Shown here: positions 29,582 through 35,849 of the stretch, one piece after another | How positions within the stretch are numbered: position 1 is the first letter of the stretch | Layout: every line of letters starts with the position of its first letter | Source: Solirubrobacter deserti | GTDB lineage: Bacteria; Actinomycetota; Thermoleophilia; Solirubrobacterales; Solirubrobacteraceae | DNA: 64,000 nucleotides | Direction: 5' to 3' | NCBI RefSeq assembly: GCF_003344625.1 | Contig: NZ_QPKJ02000002.1 | Location: 620,001-684,000, forward strand | Notes under the pieces: model-generated | Told to the model about the DNA's origin: nothing | The model's input: only the letters and a program-made list of their open reading frames with translations | Database searches by the model: none | Made by a program: the position numbers and the translations under genes

Positions 29582-32500
29582 GTGGCGGAGGCGGCCGAGC
29601 GTGAACCCCAGGTAGAGCCCGCGGCCCCGGCGTCCCCGGGCGGCACCGCGGCCTTCGCATCCGCCACCTCGGACCTCGCGGGCGCCGGCCAGTCGCGCCC
29701 GCCGCTGTCCCGCGGCACCGTGATGCGCCTCCAGGGCAGCGCCGGCAACGCGGCCGTGAACGACTTGATCGCGGGCCGCCGCAGCGACTCCGCGGTCCGC
29801 ACGGTGACCGTCCCCACCTCCGACGACGCCGTCCTGATGCGCGCGATCGTCGCCCGCGCGCCGGTCACCACCGAAGACCGCCCGATCGTCGATGAGCAAC
29901 GCGATGCCGACGCCGCCGCGGCCGGCGAGGCCGCCGCCAAGACGGGCGAGGCTCCGAACGCGAAGAAGACGAGCGGCGCGGGCGCGGACGCGACGAGCGA
30001 CTCGGCGCCGGCCGGGGGCGCCGGCGCGACGAGCGAGGCTGCTCCGGGCGGCCCCGGTGCGGGGACGACGAGCGACGTCGCCACGGCCGGCGCGGGGTCT
30101 GGCGCTGGCGCACCGGTCGGCGCGACGGACGTGCTGGCCGCGGGCCTCGCGGGCGCGACGGGAGCGACCGGTGGTGGTGGCGCGCCGGTCGGTGCGACGG
30201 ACGTGCTGGCCGCGGGCTTCGCGGGCGCGACGGGCGCGACCAGCGGTGGCGGCGCGCCGGTCGGTGCGACCGACGTGTTGGCGGCCGGCCTCGCGGGTGC
30301 GAAGGGAGCGACCGGCGGTGGGGGCGCGCCGGTCGGCGCGACCGACGTGTTGGCGGCCGGCCTCGCCGGCGCCACGGGCGCGACGGCCGCGCCGGGTGCC
30401 GACACGGCCGGGGCCGACGGTGCAGGCACCAGCGCCGCGTCGACGGCCACGACCGGTTCCGACGCGGTGTCGGCGGCGACGGATGCGGCGAACGCGGCGG
30501 CGAGTCGCGCAGCACCGGGGCCGACCACCCCCGGTTCCGGGGCCGCGAGTGCGGTGTCGGCGGCGACCGAGGCGGCGAACGCGGCCGTGAGCGGCGCCGG
30601 CACGGCGACAGGTTCGGCGAGCGCTGGTCTCGGTGCGGGCGCGATGTCGGCGGCCACTCAGGCCGCGAACGCGGCTGTGGGTGGCGCGACCACGCGCCCG
30701 GCGACGGCCGGTGCTGGCGCGACGGGCGGGACGGGCGCGGTGTCGGCCGCGACTGAGGCGGCGAACGCCGCCGTCGGGAGCGCCGGTGCGACGGCCGGTC
30801 CCGCGACCGCGGGGTCCAGCCCGGCGACGGGCGCGACGGGCGCGGTGTCGGCCGCCACGGACGCGGCCACCGCAGCCGTCGGGGCCACGCCCGTGCCGGG
30901 TGCGGCTGCGAGTCCCGGCGCCGCTGCGGCGGTGCCGCCGGGCGCGGCCGCGCTACCGGCCGTGCCAGGCGCCGCGGGCCCCGACGCGGCGGGGACGGCC
31001 GTGGCTCCCGGTGGTGGTCCGGCCGGGCCTGGGCTCGAAGCGCCGGCCGGGGCGGCGGGCGTCGGCGACATCGCCGGGCTTGCGGCGTCGGCCGGTGGCG
31101 CGGCGGCCGCGCCCCTCTCCGTGCTCGGCGCGCCCGGCGCGATCGCGGGCGCGATGGGTGGGGTGGCGGCGGCCGTCACGGGCGGGCTGAACGCGGCGGC
31201 CCCCGCCGCACCGGCTGGGCCCGCGGCGGCGCCCGCCGGCGGCACGCCCGACGTCGGCGCCGAGGCCGCCGGAGGCGAAGGCGAAGCCGGAGCGGCGAAG
31301 GAAGGGCCGTCCGAGGAGGAACTCGCCGAGATCGAGACGCAGCTGGCCGCCGGGCCGCAGCGCGAGGAGGAGCCCGAGCCGGCTCCCGCGCCCGCGTCCA
31401 CGACGTTCGAGCTGCCGGAGCCCGAGACGGCCGACACCGCGGAGCCGGCGGACCCGGAGGCGGCGGAGCCCGATCCGGGGCCCGAGCCGGCCGAGGACGC
31501 GGCGGTCTCGCCCGCGATGGCTCCCGACGCGCCGATGGACGAGGCGGCCCCCGCGGCGGTCGCTGCGCCGGAGGTCGAGGCCGGTCCGGCGCCCGCGGAA
31601 GCACTGGCGCCGACGCCGGAGCCCACCACGGAGCCCGAGGACGCCGGCGGCGGCGAGACGTTCATCGCCCGCGCGCCCGCGACGGAGCTCCTCGCGCCGC
31701 CCACGGAGGATCTGACCGCCGAGCCCGAAGAGGAGCCCGCGCAGGACCCGTCCGCGATCTCGGCCGACGCGCAGGGCGAGCTCGAGGCGCTCGGCGCGAG
31801 CGGCGGCGGCGAGTACGCCGGCGGTGGCGGCGGTGGGGGAGGCGGCGGCGCCGTCGAGGCCGAACCCGAGGCGCCCGCGCCCGACGTGAGCAACGCGGAC
31901 CCGGCCGCGGCGGTCTCCACGGCGGCGTCGCTCAAGCCCGCGCAGATGCTCGAGACGCTGGGCGGCGCCGAGAAGGCCGCCGCCAACCACGTCACCAAGG
32001 AGCAGGAGAAGCTCGCGGCGCAGCCGCCCGAGATCGAGGCCGGCGGCGGCGCGGACGGCCCGGCCGCCGACGAGAAGCACGCCAGCACGCCGCCCAGCCG
32101 CCCGACCACCACCAAAGCGGCCGCGAAGAGCGGTGGCGAGCCCGAGAAGCCGGCGCCGACGCCCGCGCCGCCACCAAAGGCCCCGCTGCCGCCCGGCCCG
32201 GCGCTCACCCCCGATCCCAAGGGCAACGTCTCCGAGGGCGACGGGGCCAAGATCAAGGCCGCGATCGACGCGTTGCCCACGTCCGACGGCGCCGTCGCGG
32301 TCCCGGCGATCTCTACGCCCAAGCTCCAGCTCACGGGCGCCGCCGACCCCGCGCAGATGGGCGAGCAGAAGGCGCACCTGGACGAGACGGTCGCCAAGAC
32401 CAGCGCGCAGGGCGTCAAGGAGGCCGCCGAGCCCGCCGGCGAGAACGATCTCGCGCCCACGACCAAGCCCGAGAAGATCAAGGCCGAGATCCCCGCGGGC

Positions 32501-35221
32501 GGCGCACAGGCCGCGCCCGGCGCCGCCGGCCCCGGCGCAGACGACGAGACCGCGAGCATCGTCGCCGACCAGGAATCCGGCCCGCAGCTCAAGGCCGCCG
32601 CGTCCCAGGCCGCCGCACAGATCGGCGCCGAGAAACAACAGCACGCGCAGAAGGCCGCCCAGACCAAGGCCGCGGCCGTCGAAGAGGCGCAGGCCGAGGA
32701 GGCCAAGGGCAAGGCCGACCAGATCGCCGAGCACGCCGCGGCCAAGGCCGGCGTCTCACAGGCCCGCAGCGACTGGACCGGCGAGCAGAAGCAGCTCGCC
32801 GACGCGGCCCGCACCGAGGCCACCGGGGCGGTCGGCGAGGCCCAGACCGCCATCCAGACCGAGAAGGGCAAAGCCGAGCAAGAAGCGGTCAAGCACGTCG
32901 AGGCCGGCCGCAAGGAAGCCGAGGACGCCAAGCGCAAGGGCGACGAGGAAGCCAAGCGCGAGAAGGACAAGGCCAAGGAGGAATCCGGCGGCGGCGGGTT
33001 CTTCGGCTGGGTGGCGTCCAAGGCCAAGGCGCTCTACGACAAGGTCAAGGACGGCATCACCGCGGTCTTCAACAAGGTCCGCAGCGCGATCACCACGGCC
33101 ATCAACAAGGCCAAGGAGCTCGCGCACAGCGTCATCGACCGCGCCGTCAAGTTCGTCGCCGACAAGGTGAAGGCCGTCGCCGGCAAGCTGCTCGCGATCG
33201 GCGACAAGCTGATCCCGGGCTTCGCCGCGGCGCGCCAGAAGTTCGGCAAGTGGATCAAGGACCGCGTCAAGCAGGCCGTTCAGGCGCTCAACCGCATCGT
33301 GACCGCCGTCAAGGACGGCATCCGCAAGGTCATGACCGCGGTCGGCAACGCGCTCAAGCAGGGCCTGGACCTGCTCAAGAAGGGCATCAGCGCCGCGATC
33401 GACGCGGTCAAGAACGTCGTCAAGGCCGCGATCGAGAAGGCCAAGGCCGCGATCGCCGCGCTCGGCCAGTTCGCGGCGATCATCAAGGACATCGCGTCCA
33501 ACCCCGGCCAGTGGCTGAGCAACCTTGGCGCGGCCGTGATGGACGGCATCAAGAACCACCTGTGGAAGGCGCTCAAGACCGCCATCCAGAGCTGGTTCAA
33601 CGAGAAGCTGGAATCGCTGCTCGGCCTCGGCAAGAGCGTCATGGGCCTGCTCACCAAGGGCGGGATCACCATGGCCCAGGTCGGCAAGATGGCGTTCGAG
33701 GCGCTGAAGGCCGCGATCCCGCCGGCGCTGATCATGATCCTCGTCGAGCGCCTCGTCTCGATGATCGTCCCCGCCGCCGGCGCCGTGATGGCCGTCGTCC
33801 AGGGTCTGATGGCGGCCTGGGGCGCGATCCAGAAGATCCTCGCCGCGATCGACCGCTTCATCGCCTTCCTGAAGGCCGTCAAGTCCGGCAACGCCGGCCC
33901 GGCGTTCGCCAACGCGCTCGCGGCCGCCGCCGTCGCGGTGATCGAGTTCGTCTCCCAGTTCCTGCTGCGCAAGATCGCCGGCGCCGCGAGCAAGGTCGCG
34001 GGCAAGATCAAGGCCATCGCCCAGAAGATCGGCAAGAAGCTGATGGCGGCGATGAAGAAGGTCGGCAAGAAGATCAAGCGCGGCGCCACCCGGCTCAAGG
34101 ACAAGGTCTTCGGCAAGCGCAACAAGAAGACGAAGACCGACAAGGACGGCAAGAAGAATCAAGAGACCAAGGAGGACAAGCAGAAGAAGCTCGACGACGC
34201 CGTGGCCAAGATCCGGCCCAAGATCATGGCCCTCGTCGCCAAGAAGGCCTCCAGCCTGCGGATGAAGGCGCAGCTGCTCTACTGGCGCGTCGCGAACAAG
34301 CTCTCGCGCCTGTGGGTCGAGCAGAAGGGCGAGTACATCGGCGTCAAGGCGCAGGTGAACCCGGTCAAGGACGTGGTGGAGAAGATCTTCGCCGACCCGG
34401 CCGACCTGCACGCGATGCTCCTGCGCATCGGCGAGAAGCTCAAGAACAATCCACAGGTCACCGCCGAGATCAGGAAGATCAAGGCCGCTCGCGCCCGCCG
34501 CAGGAACAACCCCGACATGAAGCCGCGGGACGCCCAGTCTCCCGCGGCCGAAGCCGCGGCGATCAGCGGGAAGGCCCAACGCGAACCCAAGACGGGCGAG
34601 CACGTGATGATGGGCGACCAGGACGTCAACGAAGGCCAGAGCTACACGTCCATGCCCGGCCACATCAAGACCTACGGGCTGGGCAAGGGGCACTACAACC
34701 CCGCGATCACCGGCATCCTGGCCGACATGGAGGAGTCCGGGCTCTCACCCGAGGTGATCCGCAGGGGCATCCACAACGTCCTGCAGAACAAGCCCATCGG
34801 CCCCGGGTTCGCCGACCATCCGAAGGCTGCCAGCCAGGCCGCCGCGATCGCCCGGCTCATGTTCGTCGTCGAGCCCGGGCGCAACTCGGCCGCGTTCGCG
34901 ACGAGTTACATGGCGTGGGAGTCGGCCGGGGAGGGCGGCGCGCCGCTCAAGGACGTCGTCACCAAGCTCAACCCGATGGCGCCCAAGGGGTCGGTGGCGG
35001 ACGCACGCAACTCCCTGGTGCCGCCGGAGCAGCTCAGCGACCTCGAGCAGGACAACGTCGAAGCGCTGTATCGCAGGGAGATGCTGACGGTCGTCACCTA
35101 CCTCGAGAGCCTGATGCGCGCGGAGAAGCCGATGTTCACGACCGACGCCGAGTGCAAGGTGTTCGTCGAGAAGAAGCTCGAGAAGCACCTGCTGTCAAAG
35201 TTGAAGGCGTTGCTGCTCTAA
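29582..35221 (+). CDS. Giant repeat-rich protein with contractile-injection/polymorphic-toxin-like architecture
   Basis: The product has 1879 aa from GTG 29582 (1885 from ATG 29564). The GTG is preferred because TACGGT lies 9 nt upstream. Near residue 50 is SRGTVMRLQGSAGNAAV, the 'LQ..AGN.AV' signature seen in DUF4157-type proteins tied to extracellular contractile injection systems. Next come four 24-residue and five shorter Ala/Gly/Thr repeats (about residues 176-440), then about 400 acidic Pro/Ala/Glu-rich residues. After a coiled coil (about 1000-1140) there is a long Lys/Ala amphipathic-helix region with a hydrophobic core (IPPALIMILVERLVSMIVP and AAWGAIQKILAAIDRFIAFL). A very basic linker (GKRNKKTKTDKDGKKN) precedes a roughly 300-residue C-terminus I cannot assign, the candidate effector. 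No signal peptide is seen. Confidence 0.65.
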   Translation: MAEAAEREPQVEPAAPASPGGTAAFASATSDLAGAGQSRPPLSRGTVMRLQGSAGNAAVNDLIAGRRSDSAVRTVTVPTSDDAVLMRAIVARAPVTTEDRPIVDEQRDADAAAAGEAAAKTGEAPNAKKTSGAGADATSDSAPAGGAGATSEAAPGGPGAGTTSDVATAGAGSGAGAPVGATDVLAAGLAGATGATGGGGAPVGATDVLAAGFAGATGATSGGGAPVGATDVLAAGLAGAKGATGGGGAPVGATDVLAAGLAGATGATAAPGADTAGADGAGTSAASTATTGSDAVSAATDAANAAASRAAPGPTTPGSGAASAVSAATEAANAAVSGAGTATGSASAGLGAGAMSAATQAANAAVGGATTRPATAGAGATGGTGAVSAATEAANAAVGSAGATAGPATAGSSPATGATGAVSAATDAATAAVGATPVPGAAASPGAAAAVPPGAAALPAVPGAAGPDAAGTAVAPGGGPAGPGLEAPAGAAGVGDIAGLAASAGGAAAAPLSVLGAPGAIAGAMGGVAAAVTGGLNAAAPAAPAGPAAAPAGGTPDVGAEAAGGEGEAGAAKEGPSEEELAEIETQLAAGPQREEEPEPAPAPASTTFELPEPETADTAEPADPEAAEPDPGPEPAEDAAVSPAMAPDAPMDEAAPAAVAAPEVEAGPAPAEALAPTPEPTTEPEDAGGGETFIARAPATELLAPPTEDLTAEPEEEPAQDPSAISADAQGELEALGASGGGEYAGGGGGGGGGGAVEAEPEAPAPDVSNADPAAAVSTAASLKPAQMLETLGGAEKAAANHVTKEQEKLAAQPPEIEAGGGADGPAADEKHASTPPSRPTTTKAAAKSGGEPEKPAPTPAPPPKAPLPPGPALTPDPKGNVSEGDGAKIKAAIDALPTSDGAVAVPAISTPKLQLTGAADPAQMGEQKAHLDETVAKTSAQGVKEAAEPAGENDLAPTTKPEKIKAEIPAGGAQAAPGAAGPGADDETASIVADQESGPQLKAAASQAAAQIGAEKQQHAQKAAQTKAAAVEEAQAEEAKGKADQIAEHAAAKAGVSQARSDWTGEQKQLADAARTEATGAVGEAQTAIQTEKGKAEQEAVKHVEAGRKEAEDAKRKGDEEAKREKDKAKEESGGGGFFGWVASKAKALYDKVKDGITAVFNKVRSAITTAINKAKELAHSVIDRAVKFVADKVKAVAGKLLAIGDKLIPGFAAARQKFGKWIKDRVKQAVQALNRIVTAVKDGIRKVMTAVGNALKQGLDLLKKGISAAIDAVKNVVKAAIEKAKAAIAALGQFAAIIKDIASNPGQWLSNLGAAVMDGIKNHLWKALKTAIQSWFNEKLESLLGLGKSVMGLLTKGGITMAQVGKMAFEALKAAIPPALIMILVERLVSMIVPAAGAVMAVVQGLMAAWGAIQKILAAIDRFIAFLKAVKSGNAGPAFANALAAAAVAVIEFVSQFLLRKIAGAASKVAGKIKAIAQKIGKKLMAAMKKVGKKIKRGATRLKDKVFGKRNKKTKTDKDGKKNQETKEDKQKKLDDAVAKIRPKIMALVAKKASSLRMKAQLLYWRVANKLSRLWVEQKGEYIGVKAQVNPVKDVVEKIFADPADLHAMLLRIGEKLKNNPQVTAEIRKIKAARARRRNNPDMKPRDAQSPAAEAAAISGKAQREPKTGEHVMMGDQDVNEGQSYTSMPGHIKTYGLGKGHYNPAITGILADMEESGLSPEVIRRGIHNVLQNKPIGPGFADHPKAASQAAAIARLMFVVEPGRNSAAFATSYMAWESAGEGGAPLKDVVTKLNPMAPKGSVADARNSLVPPEQLSDLEQDNVEALYRREMLTVVTYLESLMRAEKPMFTTDAECKVFVEKKLEKHLLSKLKALLL
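30110..30397 (+). repeat. Four tandem 72-bp coding repeats
   Basis: Units start at 30110, 30182, 30254 and 30326, each encoding 24 residues that begin APVGATDVLAAG. They are near-identical at DNA level with third-position differences, so the array could expand or contract by recombination without breaking the frame. Confidence 0.9.
30461..30881 (+). repeat. Five degenerate coding repeats (VSAATEAANAAV type)
   Basis: Five copies of a 12-residue helical word (VSAATxAANAAV, with MSAATQ and ATAAV variants) recur roughly every 30-35 residues, separated by Gly/Pro/Thr-rich spacers. They follow directly on the 72-bp array. Confidence 0.8.
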
Positions 35222-35239
35222 CGCGAGAGGGGACACGCG

Positions 35240-35797
35240 ATGCCGGAACACGGGGACACCATTCGCCTGGTCCCGAAGGACCAGGACTCCTACGACGAGA
35301 CCATGGCCGTCGTCGAGGAGCACGGCTGGGAGGAGGCTTCCGCGGGCCAGGGGGCGACCGCCGCGTGGACCGTGCCCGACGAGGACGCGAAGGTGCGCTT
35401 CATCGAGGACGGAGGGACCGCGGTGGAGTACTTCGAGGTCGAGGGCCCCGGCCGAGCGGCCGCCGCCAAGCAGCTCCAAGCCAAGATCGAGATGCTCGAG
35501 CCGTCGGAGTTCCGGGCGCACCTGGATCAGTTCGACGACGACGTGGACGCCCAACGCCTGGCGCTGTTCACGGTCGCGACCGCAGCGCCGGAGAAGAGCG
35601 ACGCCAAGGTCGTCAAGCTCCTCGTCGAGTACCTCTCGCACGAGGATTCGCTGATTCGCCGGACGGCGATGATCGCCATGGGCATCACGCGCTGGAAGGA
35701 CTTCATCCCGCCGCTCGAGCAGGTCCGCGACGAGGACCCGGACGAGCAGATCCGCAAGCGCGCCGAGAACGCCATCGAAGCGCTGAGCAAGGCGTAA
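35240..35797 (+). CDS. Small acidic HEAT-repeat protein, candidate immunity partner
   Basis: The product has 185 aa. The N-terminal half (1-95) is a small alpha/beta region rich in Asp and Glu. The C-terminal half has HEAT-like helix pairs, clearest in VKLLVEYLSHEDSLIRRTAMIAMG (read in two pieces) and IPPLEQVRDEDPDEQIRKRA. It starts 18 bp after the giant gene, with a good Shine-Dalgarno (GAGAGGGG, 8 nt upstream), so it is surely co-transcribed. Small acidic HEAT-like proteins directly downstream of large basic-ended toxins are often immunity proteins; that role here is inference. It could equally be a chaperone or adaptor. Confidence 0.65.
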   Translation: MPEHGDTIRLVPKDQDSYDETMAVVEEHGWEEASAGQGATAAWTVPDEDAKVRFIEDGGTAVEYFEVEGPGRAAAAKQLQAKIEMLEPSEFRAHLDQFDDDVDAQRLALFTVATAAPEKSDAKVVKLLVEYLSHEDSLIRRTAMIAMGITRWKDFIPPLEQVRDEDPDEQIRKRAENAIEALSKA

Positions 35798-35807
35798 CCT
35801 CGCGTCA

Positions 35808-35837
35808 ATGGGTGTCAACACCCATCGTCCCTAGAAT
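35808..35837 (+). promoter_or_regulatory. Palindrome overlapping the -35 position and a -10 candidate of the permease operon
   Basis: ATGGGTGT (35808-35815) and ACACCCAT (35818-35825) form an 8-bp dyad with a 2-bp centre. TAGAAT (35832-35837) is a good -10 hexamer 12 nt before the ATG at 35850, so the dyad covers the expected -35 region. This is the arrangement of a repressor operator. Confidence 0.45.
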
Positions 35838-35849
35838 CGCCCGCGCTCT

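Follow-up and report, generated by a model that had tools for sequence, protein, structure and literature searches.

A candidate polymorphic effector of a contractile injection system and its co-diverging HEAT partner in Solirubrobacter deserti

Directly behind the gene of a giant, repeat-rich protein of Solirubrobacter deserti lies a gene for a small acidic HEAT-repeat protein, and the question is whether the two encode an effector delivered by a contractile injection system (CIS) and the immunity protein of its producer. The pair lies in a window of 64,000 nucleotides (genome G000, contig C93, positions 620001-684000) of a 7.55-Mb assembly with 428 contigs and an estimated contamination of 5.04%. 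An earlier examination of the window, here called the original prediction, had proposed that the giant carries an effector at its C-terminus and that the HEAT protein neutralises it, and this interpretation is supported, by strong inference rather than by demonstration. Judging from sequence comparisons, we consider it likely that the giant is a CIS cargo effector, that its C-terminal (CT) domain, comprising the last ~245 residues, is an exchangeable effector domain, and that the HEAT protein (HEAT) is the immunity protein. The locus encodes a candidate polymorphic CIS effector, with an unannotated putative effector/immunity pair and with a candidate cargo tag instead of DUF4157.

In the mechanism that we propose, the giant would share its construction with the tape-measure-related effectors of actinobacterial CISs. 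It would be marked for loading by a short N-terminal tag, which the CIS or its AAA or extracellular CIS (eCIS)-core proteins would read. The low-complexity, coiled-coil-like and amphipathic or hydrophobic trunk could thread through the tail tube, or associate with it, and aid membrane passage, and CT, as the active and exchangeable domain, would harm or modify the target. HEAT would bind CT in the producer and keep it harmless, and the two would diverge together and be replaced as a cassette of about 1.7 kb. Sequence comparison itself shows the trunk family, its modular C-terminus, the cognate partner, the replaced cassette, CIS genes in this genome, and a set of tagged ORFs together with the correlation between tag and sheath. 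Tag function, delivery, CT toxicity and neutralisation by HEAT are steps that we infer; they are reasonable because there are published precedents (PMC11126660, PMC13277306, PMC8213781, PMC11297309 and PMC12691689, cited here and below from the excerpts available).

The C-terminal domain and its HEAT partner

A search with residues 1100-1885 of the giant (all residue numbers are counted from ATG 29564) yielded 252 matching proteins at E<=1e-3, counting the one from the window, among 7997 candidates scored, and a genome scan retained 80 relative loci. These loci and 120 listed proteins, some of them duplicated, form a family set of 200 entries, in which the commonly shared part corresponds to residues ~885-1635. 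CT was found in 134 of the 200 entries with an iterated profile applied to the last 420 residues, and in 83 by full-length search; the remaining entries have C-termini of different sequence. The original prediction had seen a distinct C-terminal segment and taken it for an undescribed effector; the last ~245 residues match no Pfam or NCBIfam family. Among CT members, no Pfam family matched more than two of the 43 scanned (six of them as full-length giants), and NCBIfam gave one weak match in one of 26. CT is highly divergent between family members; conserved positions are Glu1770 (43/43), residue 1773 (Arg in 36, His in 7) and Tyr1711 (38/43).

The HEAT open reading frame (ORF) begins 18 bp past the stop codon of the giant and is preceded by GAGAGGGG. 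Its product has a net charge of -19 and matches PF13646 (E 1.8e-10), so that the acidic, HEAT-like protein of 185 residues reported earlier at this position is confirmed. Downstream genes of the relatives were classified with a HEAT profile seeded from three Solirubrobacter partners and tabulated against the CT calls made with the last-420-residue profile. The table covers 79 loci, L045 having been dropped as its giant runs off the contig; L023, among the 43 CT loci, is the window's own gene, L068, one of the 36 without a CT assignment, is a fragment of 405 aa, and L047 and L048 represent one genome. HEAT was adjacent at 38 of the 43 CT loci versus 4 of the 36 others (Fisher p 1.3e-12, phylogeny ignored). 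In L031 and L091, a HEAT domain is adjacent inside a longer reading frame, which brings the number to 40 of 43, and Pfam HEAT_2 was recognised at E<=0.01 in 31 of these 40 partners. The CT-type giants of L047 and L048 end in the same residues.

CT and HEAT also diverge together. Over 40 loci, CT and HEAT distances were correlated with r 0.72, and with a partial r of 0.69 given trunk distance (0/2000 permutations). Among 151 genomes of the order, a HEAT query gave four matches, in the same four genomes that have a strong trunk match and each directly after the giant; a fifth genome, G103, has a weak trunk match (E 8.6e-4). A HEAT-family profile, with at most 10 candidates scored per genome, matched 6 of 296 genomes of the phylum at E<=1e-8, full-length only in G000 and G319. 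The G319 copy (L149:1501-2094, -) is an orphan whose neighbouring reading frames were judged by eye to be transposase-like; the sheath search gave no match in this genome, and the copy fits an orphan immunity gene. The original prediction would have been refuted by HEAT homologues occurring independently of the giant; HEAT tracks CT, and of the two full-length matches in the 296 genomes, the G319 copy is free. A second HEAT paralogue was seen near the CT giants of two cyanobacterial loci (L038:4296-4898 and L040:4771-5370).

Between sister species, CT and HEAT differ as a block. The order giant, HEAT, APC permease is kept within Solirubrobacter, and G063 also keeps the upstream isochorismatase, pyrophosphatase and glutamate-cysteine ligase. 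Between S. deserti and three congeners, identity is 94-95% in the trunk (94-96% between the congeners), 80-86% in the coiled-coil-like region and 92-93% in the APC permease; between S. deserti and G063, it is 94% in the glutamate-cysteine ligase, 87% in the pyrophosphatase and 78% in the isochorismatase. In the pre-CT domain, identity to the congeners is 43%, in CT 26-29% and in HEAT 21-26%. G063 and S. taibaiensis have both retained CT (80%) and HEAT (78%), and S. phytolaccae is intermediate to these two (CT 39-40%, HEAT 33%). Sliding DNA identity to G063 and S. phytolaccae is 82-100% from nucleotide ~32905 to ~34085, drops over the linker, is 35-60% from ~34384 to 35746 and returns to 89-98% from 35864, just inside the APC gene. 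The control pair, G063 and S. taibaiensis, keeps 68-94% DNA identity throughout the block. Bit scores of the S. deserti CT are 141 with P0014, 83 with a Cellulomonas locus and 59 with a cyanobacterial protein, compared with about 10 or less for the congeners; the best scores of its HEAT are 46 bits against Anaerolineae L028, 44 against S. phytolaccae and 32 against Cellulomonas L029. Co-divergence and block replacement, as read from these comparisons, are effector/immunity behaviour.

Polymorphic toxin systems have a conserved trunk, an exchangeable C-terminal domain and a cognate downstream immunity partner. The giant family has a conserved trunk, and the C-terminal variability expected from the original prediction is present: other domains replace CT in relatives, and between congeners CT is replaced as a block. 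It also has a downstream gene tied to the C-terminal domain, an orphan copy of that partner and, in some relatives, a pretoxin HINT domain. It differs from such systems in that this CT was not seen on other delivery trunks in a limited search.

Injection machinery and the LQxxxGNxAV tag

The original prediction had noted that sheath, tube and baseplate genes are missing around the giant and had placed delivery in trans. A genome search found an eCIS locus on another contig, C390, with sheath, gp25, Baseplate_J, Tail_P2_I, spike, AAA ATPase and one eCIS_core protein; a tube gene was read only in the syntenic locus of G063. The eCIS_core protein, at C390:720386, is the only PF13699 match of the genome at E<=1e-3. 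Because the eCIS locus lies on another contig of the same genome, delivery of the giant in trans is plausible. A sheath was found in 11 of the 151 genomes of the order, and the four with a strong trunk match, two of them one species, all bear a sheath (p 1.6e-5, ignoring phylogeny); over the order and genus searches together, this holds for five of five.

The trunk shares homology with eCIS-core proteins. The 80 relative loci come from Actinomycetota, Cyanobacteria, Chloroflexota, Myxococcota, Acidobacteriota, Pseudomonadota and other bacteria (phylum inferred from organism names), and in 60 of them one or more genes of the fetched flank match a CIS gene, in six of the 60 an AAA ATPase only. 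Among the 120 relatives listed, PF13699 (eCIS core, DUF4157) is present in many and a pretoxin HINT domain in a few. Many Streptomyces relatives, about 2030-2280 aa long, have an HExxH motif near residue 108 and resemble Tme, described below, in their layout. Across 171 giants, a tag-like motif was found in 33 and HExxH within the first 620 residues in 73, the two together in none; in the giant itself, a Pfam scan found no PF13699 (DUF4157, eCIS_core, HExxH) at E<=1.

These features recall several published effectors. Tme of Streptomyces davawensis is a tape-measure-related CIS effector with DUF4157 and an EndA-like nuclease; it is a very large, mostly disordered CIS cargo with coiled coils, hydrophobic segments and a C-terminal effector domain (PMC11126660). 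The giant is likened to it by layout; unlike Tme, it has the tag instead of DUF4157 and a different C-terminal domain with a HEAT partner, and its gene sits outside the CIS cluster. Its composition, repeats and hydropathy agree with the Tme/Sle1-type layout, in which disordered or coiled-coil regions and hydrophobic helices precede the effector. Growth inhibition by an Sle1-type effector is alleviated by the gene just downstream, and Sle1 and Sle2, likened here by description, are DUF4157-less cargos with variable C-termini and a separate small DUF4157 protein in the genome (PMC13277306). There, these genes are adjacent and beside CIS structural genes, whereas here the eCIS_core protein is far from the giant. 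The eCIS-associated toxins with DUF4157 share the plan of an N-terminal module, a linker occasionally exceeding 1000 residues and a C-terminal toxin, some with an immunity partner (PMC8213781, PMC11297309); here, the short conserved tag replaces DUF4157 and also occurs on ORFs far from the CIS locus. No CIS immunity protein with HEAT repeats was found in the open-access literature.

The tag was searched with a profile built from 11 LQxxxGNxAV windows, with up to 150 candidates scored in the own genome and up to 50 (order) or 25 (phylum) per genome elsewhere, so that tag counts per genome are lower bounds. In the own genome, where 150 of 284 candidates were scored, it occurs in at least 26 places at E<=1 and at least 16 at E<=1e-3, including the giant. 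The 15 other ORFs at the stricter threshold (loci L117-L136) each have a potential start codon no more than 45 residues before the motif, a weak criterion; the frames of L118, L126, L127 and L129 extend more than 100 residues upstream of it. Of the 25 places other than the giant, 23 were read, and a Pfam scan of 22 of these (L128 left out) gave no family at E<=0.01 for 16. Matches above the curated cut-off were Ntox4 (bacterial toxin 4; L127) and NfeD (L122:15080-16492); weak matches were RelA_SpoT (E 0.0036, in the tail of L118), a leucine-rich repeat and, twice, Apolipoprotein. L128:2445-2876 (-) is a tagged ORF of 144 aa with unusual codon-position composition and may be truncated.

Among other genomes, the tag goes with the sheath. 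In the order sample, it was found at E<=1e-4 in 5 of 151 genomes. Four of these are sheath-bearing members of the genus, with at least 14, 14, 6 and 4 hits, and the two with 14 belong to the same species; the fifth, G056, has one hit and no sheath match. In the phylum sample, 11 of 296 genomes have the tag, and a sheath is present in 10 of these 11 versus 31 of the 296 overall (p 3.7e-10, or 3.2e-9 excluding the own genome, phylogeny ignored); the remaining tag genome is G337. Of the 23 tag hits of this sample outside the own genome, 5 have a sheath gene no more than 10 kb away (2/5 in G372, 2/2 in G414 and 1/4 in G274). In G063, two tag genes, one with a PLD-like domain, lie ~9 and 10.5 kb from the sheath beside an AAA ATPase (L021:5933-9367, +); the neighbour of the AAA ATPase in G000 is the eCIS_core protein. 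Among the 11 of these 23 hits that were read, the tag stands directly before a DUF4157-like region in four, confirmed by Pfam in L137:13986-14720 and seen by eye in L138, L139 and L143. Another of the 11, L137:9642-13064, lies beside a sheath and encodes a large protein with a pretoxin HINT domain. On these correlations, LQxxxGNxAV is a candidate CIS cargo tag.

Such a tag would bear on how CIS particles choose their cargo. According to the available part of PMC11297309, the eCIS signal showed no specific conserved sequence, and one of the features that weighed most in the effector classifier of that study was how far a gene lies from the CIS core genes. In the open-access texts available to us, those of PMC8213781, PMC11297309 and PMC12691689 among them, we found no report of an LQxxxGNxAV tag or of an N-terminal loading motif of CISs. 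A short tag that correlates with the sheath over 296 genomes would make cargo recognition directly testable and could reveal cargos encoded anywhere in a genome.

Points against and competing explanations

Several observations weigh against the reading of the giant as tagged CIS cargo with a toxic, HEAT-neutralised C-terminus. The giant is on C93 and the only sheath match of the genome on C390, so that the gene lies neither inside nor beside the CIS cluster, and two of seven genomes of the genus have a sheath and no giant. HEAT is missing from three of the 43 CT loci, namely L047 and L048 of Terriglobus roseus and L060 of Frankia, and is present at four loci not assigned CT, one of which, L049, ends by eye like the CT member L031. 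A fold search of CT recognised no known or catalytic fold. Toxin domains usually move between delivery systems; CT was not seen outside the trunk family in a search of proteins of ~190-607 aa sharing 5-mers (8000 candidates scored), whose five matches were four proteins with trunk residues of the same family and one annotated partial protein. HEAT lacks the clear preference of CT for distant relatives, so that a single event bringing both into the genus from elsewhere is not established. Lastly, the tag was not found at E<=1e-4 in 21 of the 31 sheath genomes, nor in any of 4983 flank ORFs of the 80 relative loci.

The last two counts would also suit an explanation of the tag that we think possible but somewhat doubtful, namely that LQxxxGNxAV is the inherited N-terminal segment of one old paralogous family and that its correlation with the sheath reflects shared lineage. 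The tag genomes are partly clustered, two each belonging to genera g83 and g207, 18 of the 23 hits outside the own genome have no sheath within 10 kb, and our p-values ignore phylogeny. However, very different C-termini stand behind the tag and are dispersed over the genome, the tag genomes cover 9 of 199 genera, and five of those 23 hits do have a sheath gene within 10 kb. In its fullest form, which we regard as evenly balanced, our reading is that LQxxxGNxAV, alone or before DUF4157, is a true actinobacterial CIS sorting tag for loading in trans of at least a dozen dispersed cargos (toxins, giants and enzymes), and that CT/HEAT is an undescribed effector/immunity family, which the giant trunk carries as one of its most frequent payloads in several phyla and which is exchanged as a preformed cassette. 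CT/HEAT would add an unannotated effector/immunity candidate, for which the cassette replaced between near-identical flanks in sister species is a natural experiment.

HEAT could instead be a dedicated chaperone or loading adaptor that keeps CT from folding or accompanies the giant to the particle. Effector-specific chaperones also pair with one C-terminal type and co-diverge with it, and the confinement of CT to this delivery protein in the limited search would agree. We nevertheless find this unlikely: in several of the listed relatives whose C-terminus is a different one, the gene behind the giant differs too (by eye; some may encode helical-repeat proteins), which is the pattern of cognate immunity, the full-length orphan HEAT of G319 fits orphan immunity better than a chaperone without a client, and HEAT has a second copy near two CT giants. 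Similarly improbable, in our view, is that CT acts on the producer or its kin, in development or lysis, with HEAT tuning it. Among actinobacterial CISs, Tme promotes sporogenic differentiation (PMC11126660) and Sle1 modulates producer physiology (PMC13277306), but co-divergence and cassette replacement point to antagonistic co-evolution rather than to a conserved developmental role. That the giant plays a structural, tape-measure-like part in a defective prophage or tail particle, as the name phage tail protein given to some relatives by their sources and the Ala/Lys-rich helices and hydrophobic segments might suggest, is very unlikely, given that the only sheath match is on another contig, that the giant is flanked by housekeeping genes syntenic in congeners, and that tape measures need no partner exchanged along with the C-terminus.

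Gene start and architecture

The features of the effector/immunity candidate are collected in Table 1. The genes of P0003, P0007 and G063 begin at the residue equivalent to GTG 29582, which is therefore better supported as the start of the giant than ATG 29564. The giant is not a chance ORF, because 252 proteins match it (its own included) and the gene order recurs in other Solirubrobacter species. Nor is it an assembly artefact, because the same gene is present in S. deserti CPCC 204708 (L023), whose locus is 100% identical over the 529 residues compared, and in G119, listed as the same species, which has the same giant, HEAT and a sheath.

Table 1. Positions in the window of the giant gene, its domains and the HEAT gene
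Feature	Position	Strand	Remarks
Giant trunk-family protein	29582..35221	+	1879 aa from GTG 29582; 1885 aa from ATG 29564
N-terminal LQxxxGNxAV tag (LQGSAGNAAV), candidate CIS cargo tag	29687..29785	+	profile match
Ala/Gly/Pro-rich acidic low-complexity region with tandem repeats	29759..32218	+	repeats, composition
K/E/A-rich coiled-coil-like region, residues 885-1140	32216..32983	+	begins the part conserved across relatives; composition
Conserved trunk, residues 1140-1500	32981..34063	+	hydrophobic stretches at residues 1376-1422 and 1444-1469
Lys-rich linker, residues 1500-1545	34061..34198	+	35% K; congener identity begins dropping here
Pre-CT domain, residues 1545-1640	34196..34483	+	in 192/200 trunk-family entries, CT present or not
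CT domain, residues 1641-1885, putative effector	34484..35218	+	matches no Pfam or NCBIfam family
HEAT partner, 185 aa, acidic, putative immunity protein	35240..35797	+	HEAT_2 at residues 99-179
Cassette block (pre-CT, CT and HEAT), ~1.7 kb	34130..35840	+	differs between species; sides 82-100% DNA identity; edges approximate

Much of the architecture had been described correctly from the window. The protein has the ~1880 residues and the LQGSAGNAAV signature attributed to it, and the signature matches with E 1.9e-13 the profile of 11 windows from which the giant itself was left out. The tandem repeats are a 72-bp unit in 3.9 copies with 88% match (30106-30384), and the linker is as basic as had been stated. 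The coiled-coil-like, Lys/Ala-rich helical and Lys-rich regions are recognised from composition and hydropathy; these agree with the proposed helices and hydrophobic core, and the coiled coil itself is read from composition. A tagged ORF of 1462 aa in the same genome (L120:3917-8302, +) has weak trunk similarity (E 1.9e-6) and a different C-terminus, and is possibly a second member of the giant family.

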